Below are positions 28,501 through 33,888 of a stretch of 64,000 nt of DNA, one piece after another. The notes beneath the pieces were generated by a model. It saw nothing but the letters and a program-made list of their open reading frames with translations, had not been told where the DNA came from and made no database searches. Location: positions 12,834,001 through 12,898,000 of the forward strand of contig NC_003283.11 of NCBI RefSeq assembly GCF_000002985.6, given 5' to 3'. The position numbers were made by a program, and so were the translations under genes. Each line of letters begins with the position of its first letter. The first letter of the stretch is position 1. The stretch is from Caenorhabditis elegans (lineage: Eukaryota > Nematoda > Chromadorea > Rhabditida > Rhabditidae).

Positions 28501-29526
28501 GGGCAATTGCCAAAATTCGCGAGCTTATTGATATGTATGGAAGTAATCCGGAAAAAGATATTGTGAACAAGTTCATGATTGCTTTGGCCGAAAATGCACC
28601 TGCAAGGCGAAGCATTGATTTCGTATCTAAAAACTATTTGGATGAGAAGAAATTCTATGAAGTGTAAGTTTCAGAGCTTACAGATCTGAAATGTATATTA
28701 TTGCTTTCAGAGGAGCTGCCCAGCAGATTATTCTCAACAGCTGCGGATTCGGAGATTCTGTTTGTCAAGCTGACATGGTTAAGATGTTCACAGAAGAGGT
28801 TCTTGCCAAATGCGATGCCACGAGAATTTTGTCAGAATGTTCACAGTATGTTCCAAACCTTGATTTCCAAAATACAATTCAAAAACTCAGAATCCCCGCA
28901 CCATTCCGAGCCGAATCTTATTGTGAAGCTGTCAGAAATGGCAACTCTGATACTTTTGAAAAAGTGTTCCATTGGTACAAAACGGAAAGAAATCAAGTGG
29001 AGAAATTGAATCTGATGACTGCATTGACTTGTTCGAAGGACATTCTTACACTGAAAAAGTGAGGAAAAAACAAGTTATTAAAGAAATAATACGTTTAATT
29101 TAGGCTTTTGCTCGATGCGATGAAGCCAGAAGGATCATCATTCCGTCTGCAAGACTGTGCTGCTCTCTTCGCAAAAATCAGCTCAAACGATGCAACTACT
29201 GATGCAATGCTCAACTTTTTGATTGATCGTTGGGAGGATATGCAGAAAAGGTATTTGATTATCATTCAAGGTTTCAAGTTCAATAACTTTACTGCAGATT
29301 GGCCACGGATCACAGTGGATTCAGTCGAGTTCTATCATCTATCGTAAATACATTGAAGACCAGAGGTGGACTTGATCAATTGAGGAAATTCCGAAAGAAA
29401 GCTCCAAAAGCATCTGAATTTGGTCTTGATAAAATGGAAGAATCAGCTGAAGTTACCGTTACTTGGAGGGAAACAAATCTGAAATTTGTGACAAAGATCA
29501 TTGAGGAGATCTCGAAGAGCCTTTGA
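25534..29526 (+). CDS. M1-family aminopeptidase N-like ectoenzyme, about 991 aa
   Basis: Twelve exons in phase: 25534-25679, 25938-26115, 26312-26524, 26577-26930, 26977-27161, 27330-27537, 27591-28057, 28117-28318, 28365-28663, 28711-29058, 29104-29250 and 29298-29526. A short cytoplasmic N-terminus with KETKKGCQ is followed by one signal-anchor ([20 protein letters not shown]), so the enzyme should be a type II membrane protein with the catalytic part outside. Catalytic motifs are intact: exopeptidase motif GAMEN at residues 348-352, zinc motif HELAH at 384-388 with the third ligand Glu407 in NEGF, and the transition-state Tyr in VTYDKGGAV. The family removes N-terminal residues from peptides using zinc. 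Length matches the family (human aminopeptidase N is 967 aa). The C-terminal ERAP1-like helical region is complete. The exact substrate is unknown. Confidence 0.93.
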
Positions 29527-29785: not shown

Positions 29786-32700
29786 TCAAGTGAAAATAAG
29801 TCGGTGAATGAATAAAATAATAATTGATGTGAGAATCTTGAGTTGACACACTGAGCATCGTGCATCCATTTCTGTGAGACAGGCTGCATCCAGGAAGTCA
29901 AGACGACGTTCGATATTCGTCGCAGCCCCTGTTTGTTTTTGAGGGATTTTCTGAGTAATTTTTAGAACTTACCACAAGCAGCCGCTCCAGCACTTGGTCC
30001 ACATGCTTCATTCATTTGTTGCCGAACACAATCAGTCACCTGGAGAGTCGACCTGCATGGAAAGTGTTATGGCTTTTGTGAAAAACGGCGCCACCGCCTC
30101 ATTGGCTCAGTGGCAGAGCGTCTGTCTAGTAAACAGAAGCACAGGTAAAGCGCCACAGGTTAATGGCAGCTGAATGGCAGGTTAAAAGCCGCCAGCAGGT
30201 TAGTGTAAGCTTAGTATCAGGCTAAAAGTCGCTGTCGGACTAAGAGCAGGTTAGTGTCAGCTTAGTAATTTTCGCTCAAATTTTGAGAAAAGCGCGTCAG
30301 GTTAACGGCGAGTAAGTGTCAGGTGATGGGTCAGATGAGTGAAAATGGAAGTTTCAGAAACTGAGTGAAAGTTCATAAAAATGAGTTTTATGTTCATTCG
30401 TGTAAATTTCTGAAAAAAAAAATTTCCAAAAATACAGTTTCGGGGTTACCACACCGGATCATGAACCGCGTCAGGCTAGTGTCAGGTTAATGGCAGGTTA
30501 AGAGCCGGCAAATGGTAACTGGCAGGTTACTGTCAGGCAAAGTTTTATTGGCTCAAAAATATTTTTTTTCCAATTTTTCCAAAACTTTTCTAATCTTGTA
30601 GAAAAGTAAAAAGTTTCTGAAAATATTATTTCCAGAAATACAGTTTTGGGGATACCACACCGCGTCAGGTAAGTGTCAGGTTAGGAGCAGGCTAAGAGCC
30701 GGCAAATGCCTACTGACAGGTTACTGTCAGGCAAAGTTTTTTAACTGACACAAAATTAATGAAGGGATAAAACTGTTTTTATCGAACAATTTTCCTATTT
30801 AAATCAACTCACTAGATATGGTTAGTGAGAAACAAAGACAAATTGACTTTCACGGTTTTTAAAATTTCATACTTATGATGCGATTCCAAAACTCGAAATC
30901 ATGTTTAAAATTATTTTTGAAAATTTGTTCAAACTTTTATCAAATAATATGTGGAAAAACGTAAAATTATGTGTTGAAACAATTTTTGTAGTTGGATAGA
31001 GATTTTCCATACTCAATTACTCTAATTAATCTACATGCTATGCCAGTTTTTTGGTACCATGACCCTCGTCGGGCAAGCAAGATATCAAAAAATTATTAAC
31101 TACAAACTTGTTAATTTTGTTATGGACCATGTCTTACGTTTGGTAGTTTCTCGTTTTCTTTGTAGAGTACCGAGATATCATCAGTCAAAATCAGTGATAT
31201 TTGACTCGTAATTAGGTGCTCCTATCTGCTCAGATATCCGAGATGGCAAAAAGTTACAATGATTAATTTGCCAATCACTTTATTCCTAACAACTTTCCAC
31301 TTGACAAGTTTTTCATATTTCCGCTACCAACGGTGCTAGACCATTTTGGAAGTATTGACTTTCTATGAACAAGCCAAGTTGAGTGTTGTATTTTTTTGCC
31401 CAGGAGTGTGATTGAGCCATGAAAACTTTGGAAAATACTAAAATATACATTTCCCACACATTCAAGCAGTATTCAGGATTTTTGGAAAAACAATTTTATC
31501 AAAATTATTTTCATAAGGGGGGACCCTTATGAAATTTTTGATATCAGTGGAAAATTTTTAGGTAAATTTTTTCTGAACTAAATTTTTTTAAAAATTTTTG
31601 TTGTTTTCAAGCACAAATCACATTTCCGACTCAGCGTGATTTTTGTTTGTTTTTTACGACTTCTAATAAAAGCGAGAAAGAATTTCAAAAGAAGCTCCAA
31701 ACTCAGATGGCAACGACATTCCGAACTAACGTAGCGCGCACTCTTTACCGTAAATCCTCCTCATTTTCGAAATTATTTTTTCACCATTTATTTTTCTTTT
31801 TCTTCGATTTTTCTTTGTTTTCTTCATCAATTCTTTGATTTTTCGGCAAAAATAATTATTTTCCGTATATTTATTGGTGTTTCAGCATTTTCGACGTTGA
31901 CACGAACGATTGGGATGGCACGGAAATGGCTGGAGGAGAGAAAGGAGAGAAATGCGATTTCAACTGGTTGGAATGACGTCGATGATGATCACAGTGTATG
32001 TTCATAATAAAATATTTCAATGTAATGTAAATTTTAAACATTTTAGAAAATACGAGGAAATCTTCCCACCAATCGAGTACCCGACATTATTTAGATGGAG
32101 CGATTCTTGATTGGAAAGTTCGAATTTGTCGTCGCTAAGCCCACACCATCTTGGCTCGGATCATACTTTGCAAAGAGAATTAACCTTACAAAGTGAGTTT
32201 TAAAATCATAATTTTTTAGCTCCTTTGGAAAAAACTAACGGTTCCTCTCAACTTTAACGTTAATTTTTTACAGAAAGATGCGGAATGATGTCAAACTCCT
32301 CGAGCTGTCGCCGATAGATGCTCATTATCTACGTTACCGCCCATCTGATGCTGATCAGAATCACAGAATCAACAATTCGACCAAGTGGATGCTAATGATG
32401 GATCCAAGGAATCGAGACGAGGCTCACACTAAGCAGAAATATTAAATAATATTTATGTTTTTTTCCCTTTTTTCAGATTTATTTGTTCATTTTTCATGTT
32501 CAATAAACACAATTTTTGGCAATTTTTCTCTTTTTGTATTAACATTTAATAACAAAAAGCAGTATTCCCGGTATATATGGACCTAATACAGAATCTACAA
32601 GAACCTGACACAAACCTGACGTTGACCTGTTGCCGGCCCGCGGCGGCTTAGTGTCAACTTGACAGCGGGTCGCGATTTCACCTACCAGCTGCTGAATGGA

Positions 32701-33888
32701 GAACCCTACCAGGTTCTCCATTCAGCAGCCAGCGACCTGCTGGCAGGTTGCCACTAACCTGGCGCGGTTTACCTGTGAGGTCGCTGGTTCGATTCCAGCA
32801 TGAGGCACCGAAACTTTTTGCAAAAATTTGCATTTTGCAATTATGCAAAACCCAACAAAACCTACGGGCAGGAATCTTCATTGATAGCCAAACTAGATTG
32901 ACCGCATTGCTGCATACGGTTCGTTAGTGGAATCTGTTGGAATGATCTTTGAATGCAATCAAGATTATTCATAAAAAGGTCTCTTCCAGAGCCACAAGCG
33001 AATTCAAAAAATGCGTGGTTTTGCAAGTATGCAAGTGCTTCTCTATCAGGATGTCTTCTGAAAAATGTTTTAGAAAATCTTTAAGTGTTTTCAACTTCAT
33101 CTAACCCAGTCGTATACGCAACAAATACATTGAGATTGACACAATAAGTAGAAGCAGTTCCAAGGCAACTTACGAGTTCTTCAAAATCTCTGAAGGAATA
33201 AAACATTTAAATGTGTTCTGAAGTTTAAATATGGAAACCTTACTTGCAAATAACTGGAAGTCCATGAGTCATCATTTGATTTAATATAAATTCGGATGGA
33301 GGTAAATATCCATCATCAGGAACTACTCCATATTTTCCTAGATACGATATGTAGCAAGTGTATAACGTCTGCAATGAGAATATGTAAGAAAATAAAATAT
33401 TTCTGTAGCAACAGTATCAACCAGACGCGAAACTTTGCGCAAAATATACGGTACCCGGTCTCGCCACGACAAATTTCAGTTAATGACCTTCTGTTGCCTT
33501 TAAAGAGTACTGTAGTTTCGAACTTTTGTCTGCGGAATTTTTATTGATTTTTAATAGTTTTCTTCTCATATCTCACGATTTGTTTTTAAAAAATGCTCGG
33601 TTGTTTTTAAAATAAAATTATTTTAACGAGAAACAGTGAAAAATCTATCAAAGTGCAGCAGCAATACGTTTAAAATTACAGTACTCTTTAAAGGCGCACG
33701 CCCGCTAAAATTTAACAAAAAAATTACCGTTGCGAGACCGGGTACCGTATTCCTCTGGGAAACACGCAATATTTTCGCGTCTGGGTAATAAGCTTTCTCA
33801 GTAGCTCCAGTAATACCTGAGGTGTTGAGCATTGTTGTGCATTTCCAAGAGATACGAATAAAAATATAATAAAAGTTGTTGAAATCAT
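29786..33888 (-). CDS. secreted Cys-rich protein, probably DUF19 (T20D4.11-like), about 231 aa
   Basis: Six exons in phase: 33817-33888 (ATG), 33244-33368, 33106-33189, 32866-33057, 29973-30052 and 29786-29928. A clear signal peptide (MISTTFIIFLFVSLGNAQQ) is followed by a Cys-rich domain (DFEELVSCLGTASTYC, FFEFACGSGRDLF, CVRQQMNEACGPSAGAAACG), which fits nematode DUF19 proteins. The protein ends in a hydrophobic stretch (ILTSIIILFIHRLIF) that could be a membrane tail or GPI signal. Intron 4 is about 2.8 kb, far larger than the others, because it carries a split tRNA gene with an insertion and a nested + strand gene. Intron 1 carries a palindromic repeat. The gene is convergent with the aminopeptidase; the stops are about 260 bp apart. 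Function unknown. Confidence 0.78.
30096..30139 (+). tRNA. tRNA-Thr(AGT), 5' part of a split gene
   Basis: This part holds the 5' acceptor strand GCCTCAT, the D arm (GCTC, loop, GAGC), a complete anticodon arm (TCTGT/ACAGA around CTAGTAA, anticodon AGT) and the first two variable-loop bases AG. The rest of the tRNA lies 2.6 kb away, beyond an inserted element. It sits in intron 4 of the secreted protein gene, on the opposite strand. As arranged it cannot fold into a full tRNA unless the insertion is removed. Confidence 0.8.
30420..30545 (+). repeat. internal repeat of the insertion, copy 1
   Basis: About 120 bp, running from near TTTCCAAAAATACAGTTTCG through AAGAGCCGGCAAATG to GTTACTGTCAGGCAAAG. 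It is closely matched by a second copy about 200 bp downstream. The copies differ at scattered positions, so they are an old duplication. Confidence 0.7.
30625..30740 (+). repeat. internal repeat of the insertion, copy 2
   Basis: Second copy of the unit at 30420-30545. Shared blocks include ACCACACCG, AAGAGCCGGCAAATG and GGTTACTGTCAGGCAAAG. Confidence 0.7.
31707..32445 (+). CDS. spliced gene inside the insertion; one frame interrupted by TAG then ATG
   Basis: Exons 31707-31749, 31886-31995, 32047-32192 and 32274-32445 have good splice sites and consistent phase. Read as one frame they give 66 residues (MATTFRTNVARTLYPFST, RKWLEERKERN, NLPTNRVPDII), then TAG at 32092-32094. ATG follows at once and 89 more residues run to TAA (MERFLIGKFEFVV, PTPSWLGSYFAKRINLTKK, LLELSPIDAHYLRYRPSD). 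An AATAAA follows the stop. The N-terminus is basic with Ser/Thr and few acids, as in mitochondrial import signals, and the second part is small and basic; I do not recognise the family. Options are two cistrons, stop-codon readthrough, or a captured gene disabled by one nonsense change. It lies antisense inside intron 4 of the secreted protein gene. Confidence 0.6.
32502..32507 (+). terminator. polyadenylation signal of the nested gene
   Basis: AATAAA lies 56 bp after the TAA of the nested gene. It supports real transcription of this gene on the + strand. Confidence 0.55.
32688..32729. repeat. perfect 18-bp inverted repeat with 6-base loop
   Basis: GCTGCTGAATGGAGAACC and its exact reverse complement are separated by CTACCA. 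It lies about 50 bp inside the right end of the insertion, in the repeat-rich flank. It could be a subterminal structure of the element. Confidence 0.85.
32780..32807 (+). tRNA. tRNA-Thr(AGT), 3' part of a split gene
   Basis: GTC completes the variable loop. It is followed by the T arm (GCTGG TTCGATT CCAGC), the 3' acceptor strand ATGAGGC pairing perfectly with GCCTCAT of the 5' part, and discriminator A. Joined to 30096-30139 it gives 72 nt with every stem fully paired. The duplicated AG at 32778-32779 is left out of the joined tRNA. Confidence 0.8.
33421..33784. mobile_element. palindromic MITE-like element in intron 1 of the secreted protein gene
   Basis: Outer arms start CCAGACGCGAAA and are repeated inverted at the far end. 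Further in, TACGGTACCCGGTCTCG and GCCTTTAAAGAGTACTGTA each have an inverted partner. It codes for nothing. From memory this is one of the abundant palindromic families of the C. elegans genome. Confidence 0.8.

Follow-up and report, generated by a model that had tools for sequence, protein, structure and literature searches.

A DNA transposon with terminal inverted repeats splits a Caenorhabditis elegans tRNA-Thr gene and belongs to related families found mainly inside or beside tRNA genes or tRNA-like repeats

The stretch of DNA analyzed here (the window) comprises 64,000 nucleotides of Caenorhabditis elegans, positions 12,834,001 to 12,898,000 of contig NC_003283.11, and contains a threonine transfer RNA (tRNA) gene, tRNA-Thr(AGT), that is cut in two by a DNA transposon of 2638 bp with terminal inverted repeats (TIRs). 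The interruption is a single insertion into the variable loop of the tRNA, which duplicated 2 bp (AG) of the target. The element belongs to related families, with at least five kinds of sequence (F1 to F5) behind the common end CACAGGTAAASCG, and most paired insertions of F1 to F5 lie within tRNA genes or tRNA-like repeats or immediately next to them. We consider it highly probable that these are DNA-transposon families with a strong preference for tRNA genes, guided to type-2 genes of RNA polymerase III (Pol III), and that one AG-duplicating insertion by such an element split the gene in the window.

The two parts of the gene lie on the plus strand at 30096 to 30139 (nt 1 to 44) and at 32780 to 32807 (nt 45 to 72, 28 nt). 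Joined, they form a 72-nt sequence that ARAGORN calls as tRNA-Thr(agt), with all pairs formed in the acceptor (7/7), D (4/4), anticodon (5/5), and T (5/5) stems, and the split falls after nt 44, in the variable loop. The dinucleotide AG, read in the sequence as the target-site duplication (TSD), stands on both sides of the insert, at 30138 to 30139 and 32778 to 32779, and other pairs of family ends likewise have short TSDs. The insert itself (30140 to 32777, plus strand) is bounded by 29-nt inverted repeats that are 86% complementary and start CACAGGTAAA, with the left TIR at 30140 to 30168 (CACAGGTAAAGCG...) and the right TIR at 32749 to 32777 (CACAGGTAAACCG... on the minus strand). An earlier reading of the window, made from its letters alone (the sequence-only reading), had described the two-part cloverleaf with perfect stems, the break in the variable loop, the AG on both sides, and the inverted ends, all of which were borne out. 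It had also proposed a single recent insertion that left the tRNA halves undamaged, with a search for an intact copy of the joined tRNA as a check. Our search of the genome (100,286,401 bases in 7 contigs, cited below as C1, C2, and so on) found the joined sequence elsewhere in 15 copies at 100% over nt 1 to 72 and in one more over nt 1 to 71. Because both halves equal these intact copies at every base, we too judge the insertion to be recent. Given 15 identical intact copies and an insert that is repeated genome-wide, the split gene is no chance resemblance.

Splice signals read by eye, rather than annotation, place the gene inside a minus-strand intron at 30053 to 32865. Without the element and one TSD copy, this intron would measure 173 bp, which fits the roughly 175 bp anticipated by the sequence-only reading. 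The A box and B box of the gene are now 2.6 kb apart, and the gene should consequently be silent; its loss would be tolerable because 15 identical genes remain. The Rfam tRNA model gives a match of 31.8 bits at 30096 to 30201, a 106-nt stretch made up of the 5' tRNA part and element sequence, and automatic annotation could put a false tRNA there.

The picture of an isolated insertion given by the sequence-only reading stands as far as the event goes, but many relatives of the element also lie in tRNA genes, so the insertion reflects a preference and not a lone accident. The terminus CACAGGTAAASCG occurs exactly at 78 ends in the genome, and with up to one mismatch allowed it has 217 matches, compared with 153 for the reversed pattern. 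We analyzed 82 ends, consisting of the 78 exact ones and four of the one-mismatch matches; 135 further one-mismatch matches lie outside this sample. When grouped by eye according to the sequence beside the terminus, the 82 ends fell into F1 (which includes the window element), F2, F3, F4, F5, and a possible F6, with a few unrelated or chance matches also among them. They yielded 28 inward-facing pairs, for each of which an empty site was made by removing the element and one TSD copy. The 26 ends without a partner, including that of copy L040, which has a left end without the terminus, are outside the 28 pairs.

At default settings, ARAGORN called a tRNA at the junction of 11 of the 28 empty sites and in 0 of 2833 random 238-mers from the window. 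These 11 sites represent ten amino acids (Asn, Ala, Phe, Arg, Val twice, Thr, Ile, Leu, Gly, and Pro). An A box and a B box spaced as in a tRNA, with no more than two mismatches in total, were present in 19/28 empty sites versus 0/1913 controls; the counts were 20/28 versus 2/1913 at up to three mismatches and 22/28 versus 20/1913 at four. Since 11 restored tRNAs and 19 restored box pairs are set against practically none in the controls, the hits on tRNA genes can hardly be due to chance, and tRNA genes are enriched at the empty sites over a background drawn from the window only. When single flanks were examined, a box with at most one mismatch was found at 38 of 76 family ends and in 75 of 3793 control flanks. 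The 76 ends retain C5:20484533, a probable chance match, and leave out six ends set aside as having another terminus, which had no boxes in this test and were picked by the bases after the terminus once the flanks had been seen. Intact counterparts exist for other rejoined targets as well: Gly(TCC) has 29 full-length copies at 100% elsewhere in the genome, and Ile(AAT) has 5 copies at 100% over nt 1 to 75 and 15 more over nt 2 to 75. A genome search with the Rfam tRNA model was rejected as a tRNA census, with 63 of its 8106 candidates scored.

The TSDs are short and nearly constant in length, being 2 bp in 22 of the 28 pairs, 3 bp in four, and neither in two (matches of up to 9 bp were sought), whereas a matching dinucleotide was seen in only 51 of 756 mismatched flank pairs. 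Together with the TIRs and the dispersed copies in which no transposase was recognized, this is the structure of a TIR DNA transposon. The dinucleotides themselves differ among sites, and so do the insertion points, which in ARAGORN coordinates are nt 2-3 (Val on C6), 8-9 (Ala), 9-10 (Pro), 10-11 (Asn), 13-14 (Phe), 14-15 (Ile), 15-17 (Gly), 22-24 (Leu), 23-24 (Arg), 28-29 (Val on C4), and 43-44 (Thr, the window). Eight of these 11 points fall in nt 8 to 24, corresponding to the D arm and A box; no other site lies as far 3' as that in the window. Read in the tRNA sense, 15 of 21 sites have a G directly 3' of the TSD and 13 of 21 have one three bases ahead of it, a weak preference within genes that are G-rich.

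Several observations weigh against a preference for tRNA genes guided by the Pol III machinery. Eight of the 28 paired sites lack an A and B box pair at up to three mismatches; among these box-less pairs, C1:12840096, with its different terminus, may belong to another family, and a further copy is nested next to an end of another element. In the single-flank test, half of the family ends (38/76) fail, and the Val tRNA at C6:1433143 is touched by the insertion at nt 2-3 only. All of the random controls come from one 64-kb window, in which ARAGORN and Rfam found no other tRNA gene, and thus understate the genome-wide background; they also include no unrelated transposon family of the same genome. 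ARAGORN in its -ps80 setting scores 118 of 2833 random 238-mers, and because it scores controls as well, only default calls were used as proof. Mismatched flank joins also give tRNA calls (87/1120 at default, 209/1120 at -ps90, and 421/1120 at -ps80), which we attribute to tRNA halves being swapped among sites. Several family elements are flanked by a tRNA-like repeat (TGGCCGAGTGGTTAG...; for example, C3:58932-59003) that has a conserved 5' flank and at least 40 genomic matches (40 of 77 candidates scored), and the elements may target this repeat as such. Finally, since no transposase was found, the targeting mechanism is one that we only infer.

If the window is taken alone, an ordinary transposon without target preference that met a tRNA gene by chance would account for everything seen. 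Across the family, however, 11 of 28 paired sites restore tRNAs and 19 of 28 restore both boxes, and the target is small, tRNA genes numbering about 600 and occupying well under 1% of the genome, which makes chance an extremely unlikely explanation. The association could instead have arisen by descent, if the tRNA-like flanks and the element had spread as a single composite repeat. The tRNA-like repeat with its conserved 5' flank beside several copies fits such a history, as do the common flank of C2:2018573 and C3:6066275 and the same position held by L040 (C6:8145432) and C6:1780912 in near-identical tRNA-like sequences, although these last two may be either separate insertions or products of duplication. 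Against this, the isoacceptors differ from site to site, as do the positions within them and the 2- to 3-bp TSDs, and all three rejoined sites that were tested (Thr, Gly, and Ile) exist intact elsewhere. No common flanks beyond the tRNA were seen by eye in the flank listing of the sites representing ten amino acids, and we regard a composite repeat as very improbable. A functional split or intron-containing tRNA gene would explain why both halves are undamaged, but it is scarcely credible. The usual tRNA intron site adjoins the anticodon, whereas the break here is in the variable loop, and what interrupts the gene is a dispersed, TSD-flanked TIR element. In the unaltered window ARAGORN detects no tRNA, and with anticodon-loop introns of up to 3 kb permitted it gives only a misplaced Ala(tgc) fold; the 106-nt Rfam match, for its part, takes in element sequence.

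A more serious question is whether a short DNA word in the A box or D arm, and not a Pol III factor, is recognized directly by the elements, as is the case for Dada, DNA transposons found at specific sites in tRNA and small nuclear RNA genes (Kojima & Jurka 2013, PMC3706591; Kojima 2022, PMC8869645). Dada, which is held to read primary sequence, occupies tRNA genes at nt 8-13 and close to the anticodon (PMC8869645); the eight of 11 sites in nt 8 to 24 and the G preferences on either side of the TSD would suit such a reading. The sites nevertheless span nt 2-3 to 43-44, with the one in the window falling in the variable loop, and the TSD dinucleotides differ among themselves, so that direct reading of a word seems to us unlikely, though less so than the explanations above. 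For guidance by the Pol III machinery, we propose that a DDE-type transposase supplied in trans would recognize the TIRs and paste the element with a short stagger into Pol III type-2 genes. The likelier guide would be bound TFIIIC/TFIIIB or Pol III, or the open DNA that they create, since a guide shared by the genes accommodates the variation in insertion points and TSD dinucleotides better than a fixed target word does. The weak local preference for G just 3' of the TSD may add to this guidance. Selection would favor the targeting of tRNA genes because they are multicopy and scattered.

The window element, a member of F1, is non-autonomous as far as seen and has no open reading frame of 80 aa or more; the non-autonomous status of the other copies follows from a partial reading of their frames. 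A genome search (E<=0.001) gave at least 89 matching segments, its own included, with 40 of 66 candidates scored. Subterminal units of CAGGTTA type form an array on the left (30149 to 30740, plus strand), in which there are three 82-nt copies, two of them 70% and 88% like the reference copy, and recur on the right (32602 to 32761, minus strand), where the region also contains an 18-bp perfect hairpin at 32688 to 32729. The segment at 31901 to 32442 (plus strand) corresponds, in decayed form, to a captured piece of a cyclin A-like gene carried by sister copies, with window frames matching sister-copy frames at 90% identity over 48 aa and 73% over 30 aa. Frames from two F1 sisters (L044 and L047) match Pfam Cyclin_N at E ~1e-12, and one sister frame matches cyclin A2 in PDB at E ~1e-6, with cyclins B1 and E1 weaker. 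In Pfam, none of the three frames from the window itself matched a cyclin, and a sub-threshold match of one of them to Gal-bind_lectin (E=0.00042, 20.2 bits, cut-off 22.1) is taken as chance. Judged from these frames, F1 is a sub-family with a captured fragment of a host cyclin A-like gene, decayed in the window copy.

The element interior at nt 873-1803 (window 31012 to 31942) is common to other repeats (L052, L053, L061, and L062), some of which hold it as inverted pairs, and by eye F2 and F4 also have interior sequence in common. The sub-families seem to swap interiors and keep their ends. Just upstream of the locus, at 28691 to 29062 on the plus strand, lies an exon with a sub-threshold Pfam match to ERAP1_C (35.4 bits, cut-off 38.2).

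No transposase was recognized in the family among the copies examined and the part of their reading frames that was scanned. Copy L047 (C2:2018350-2025648) contains a transposase-like gene of several exons, which was rejected as the family's transposase, as it lies in a separate nested element, a 3.7-kb TIR element with ends CTCGGC... and a 2-bp TSD (AA) within the F1 copy. Searches of Pfam, NCBIfam, and PDB with the transposase-like pieces gave no convincing match, and the gene in L047 had none over a Pfam cut-off. Exons related to this nested gene occur at C2:2277311-2278721 and C1:2651063-2651588. In F3, one frame matches DDE_Tnp_1_7 below threshold (E=0.01, 15.6 bits, cut-off 22.4). No frame exceeds 74 aa in the F5 body (L115), 91 aa in the part of F4 analyzed (L117), or 96 aa in the analyzed part of an F6 end region (L116), and none of the five frames scanned from these three copies exceeded a Pfam cut-off.

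Among known systems, the CMC group (CACTA, Mirage, and Chapaev) is characterized by short TSDs, ends starting with CAC, and subterminal repeats, and Mirage-like members have a 2-bp TSD. The window element resembles them in all three respects, and a 2-bp TSD is found in 22 of 28 pairs (3 bp in 4/28). The short TSD and the CAC ends are in favor of the CMC-type element suggested in the sequence-only reading, but membership in the group is not established by these features, with no transposase recognized in the family; to our knowledge, tRNA targeting is not a CMC feature. Ty1 and Ty3 of yeast are retrotransposons that target tRNA genes via bound host proteins and insert nearby. TRE5-A of Dictyostelium also targets tRNA genes via host proteins bound there and inserts near the gene (PMC3706591). 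Unlike these, the window family consists of TIR DNA transposons that lie inside the gene body. Its TIR ends and the small frames of the window element are not those of a retrotransposon, although no dedicated reverse-transcriptase search was made. Pokey, a piggyBac-type element of 28S ribosomal RNA genes, is like the family described here a DNA transposon specialized for a multicopy RNA gene (PMC8869645). Its target, TSD, and transposase class all differ.

Dada, which works in a similar way, is the closest comparison and, within a limited literature search, supplied the only published tRNA-targeting DNA transposons that we found; we do not claim that the present families are absent from print or from Repbase and Dfam. 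Dada has TSDs of 6-7 bp, its U6 and U1 families are without TIRs, and a given family is confined to a specific site in one or few RNA genes; its hosts are fish, water flea, oyster, polychaete, and Perkinsus (PMC3706591). Internally deleted derivatives occur as well (PMC3706591, PMC8869645). The families described here are like Dada in lying inside tRNA genes of several isoacceptors, Dada sites being concentrated within the A box (nt 8-13) and about the anticodon. They are unlike it in their 2- to 3-bp TSDs and 29-nt TIRs and in their spread of sites: whereas a Dada family has its specific site, F1 alone is found in Thr at nt 43-44, Ile at 14-15, Leu at 22-24, Pro at 9-10, Asn at 10-11, and Arg at 23-24. 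Because neither a 6- to 7-bp TSD nor a fixed site was found when looked for, the element was not filed as Dada. A word search of the main text of PMC3706591 found no nematode or Caenorhabditis, and in the text of PMC8869645 the words occur only in a reference title. Within this limited literature, tRNA-targeted DNA transposons are known as Dada, and the TIR form with 2- to 3-bp TSDs in a nematode is set apart from them by TSD length and site spread.

We suggest, tentatively, the possibility that C. elegans has previously unrecognized TIR DNA transposons, unrelated to Dada, that find Pol III type-2 genes via the bound machinery, and not via a fixed sequence, and insert in the gene body. If true, they would provide among DNA transposons an equivalent of the targeting via host factors that is known from retrotransposons. 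A second, structurally different tRNA-targeting lineage in C. elegans, the most thoroughly studied nematode, would show independent arrival of cut-and-paste elements at the same safe harbor, and a family of this kind would open the targeting mechanism to worm genetics and would account for some of the broken tRNA genes in the C. elegans genome.

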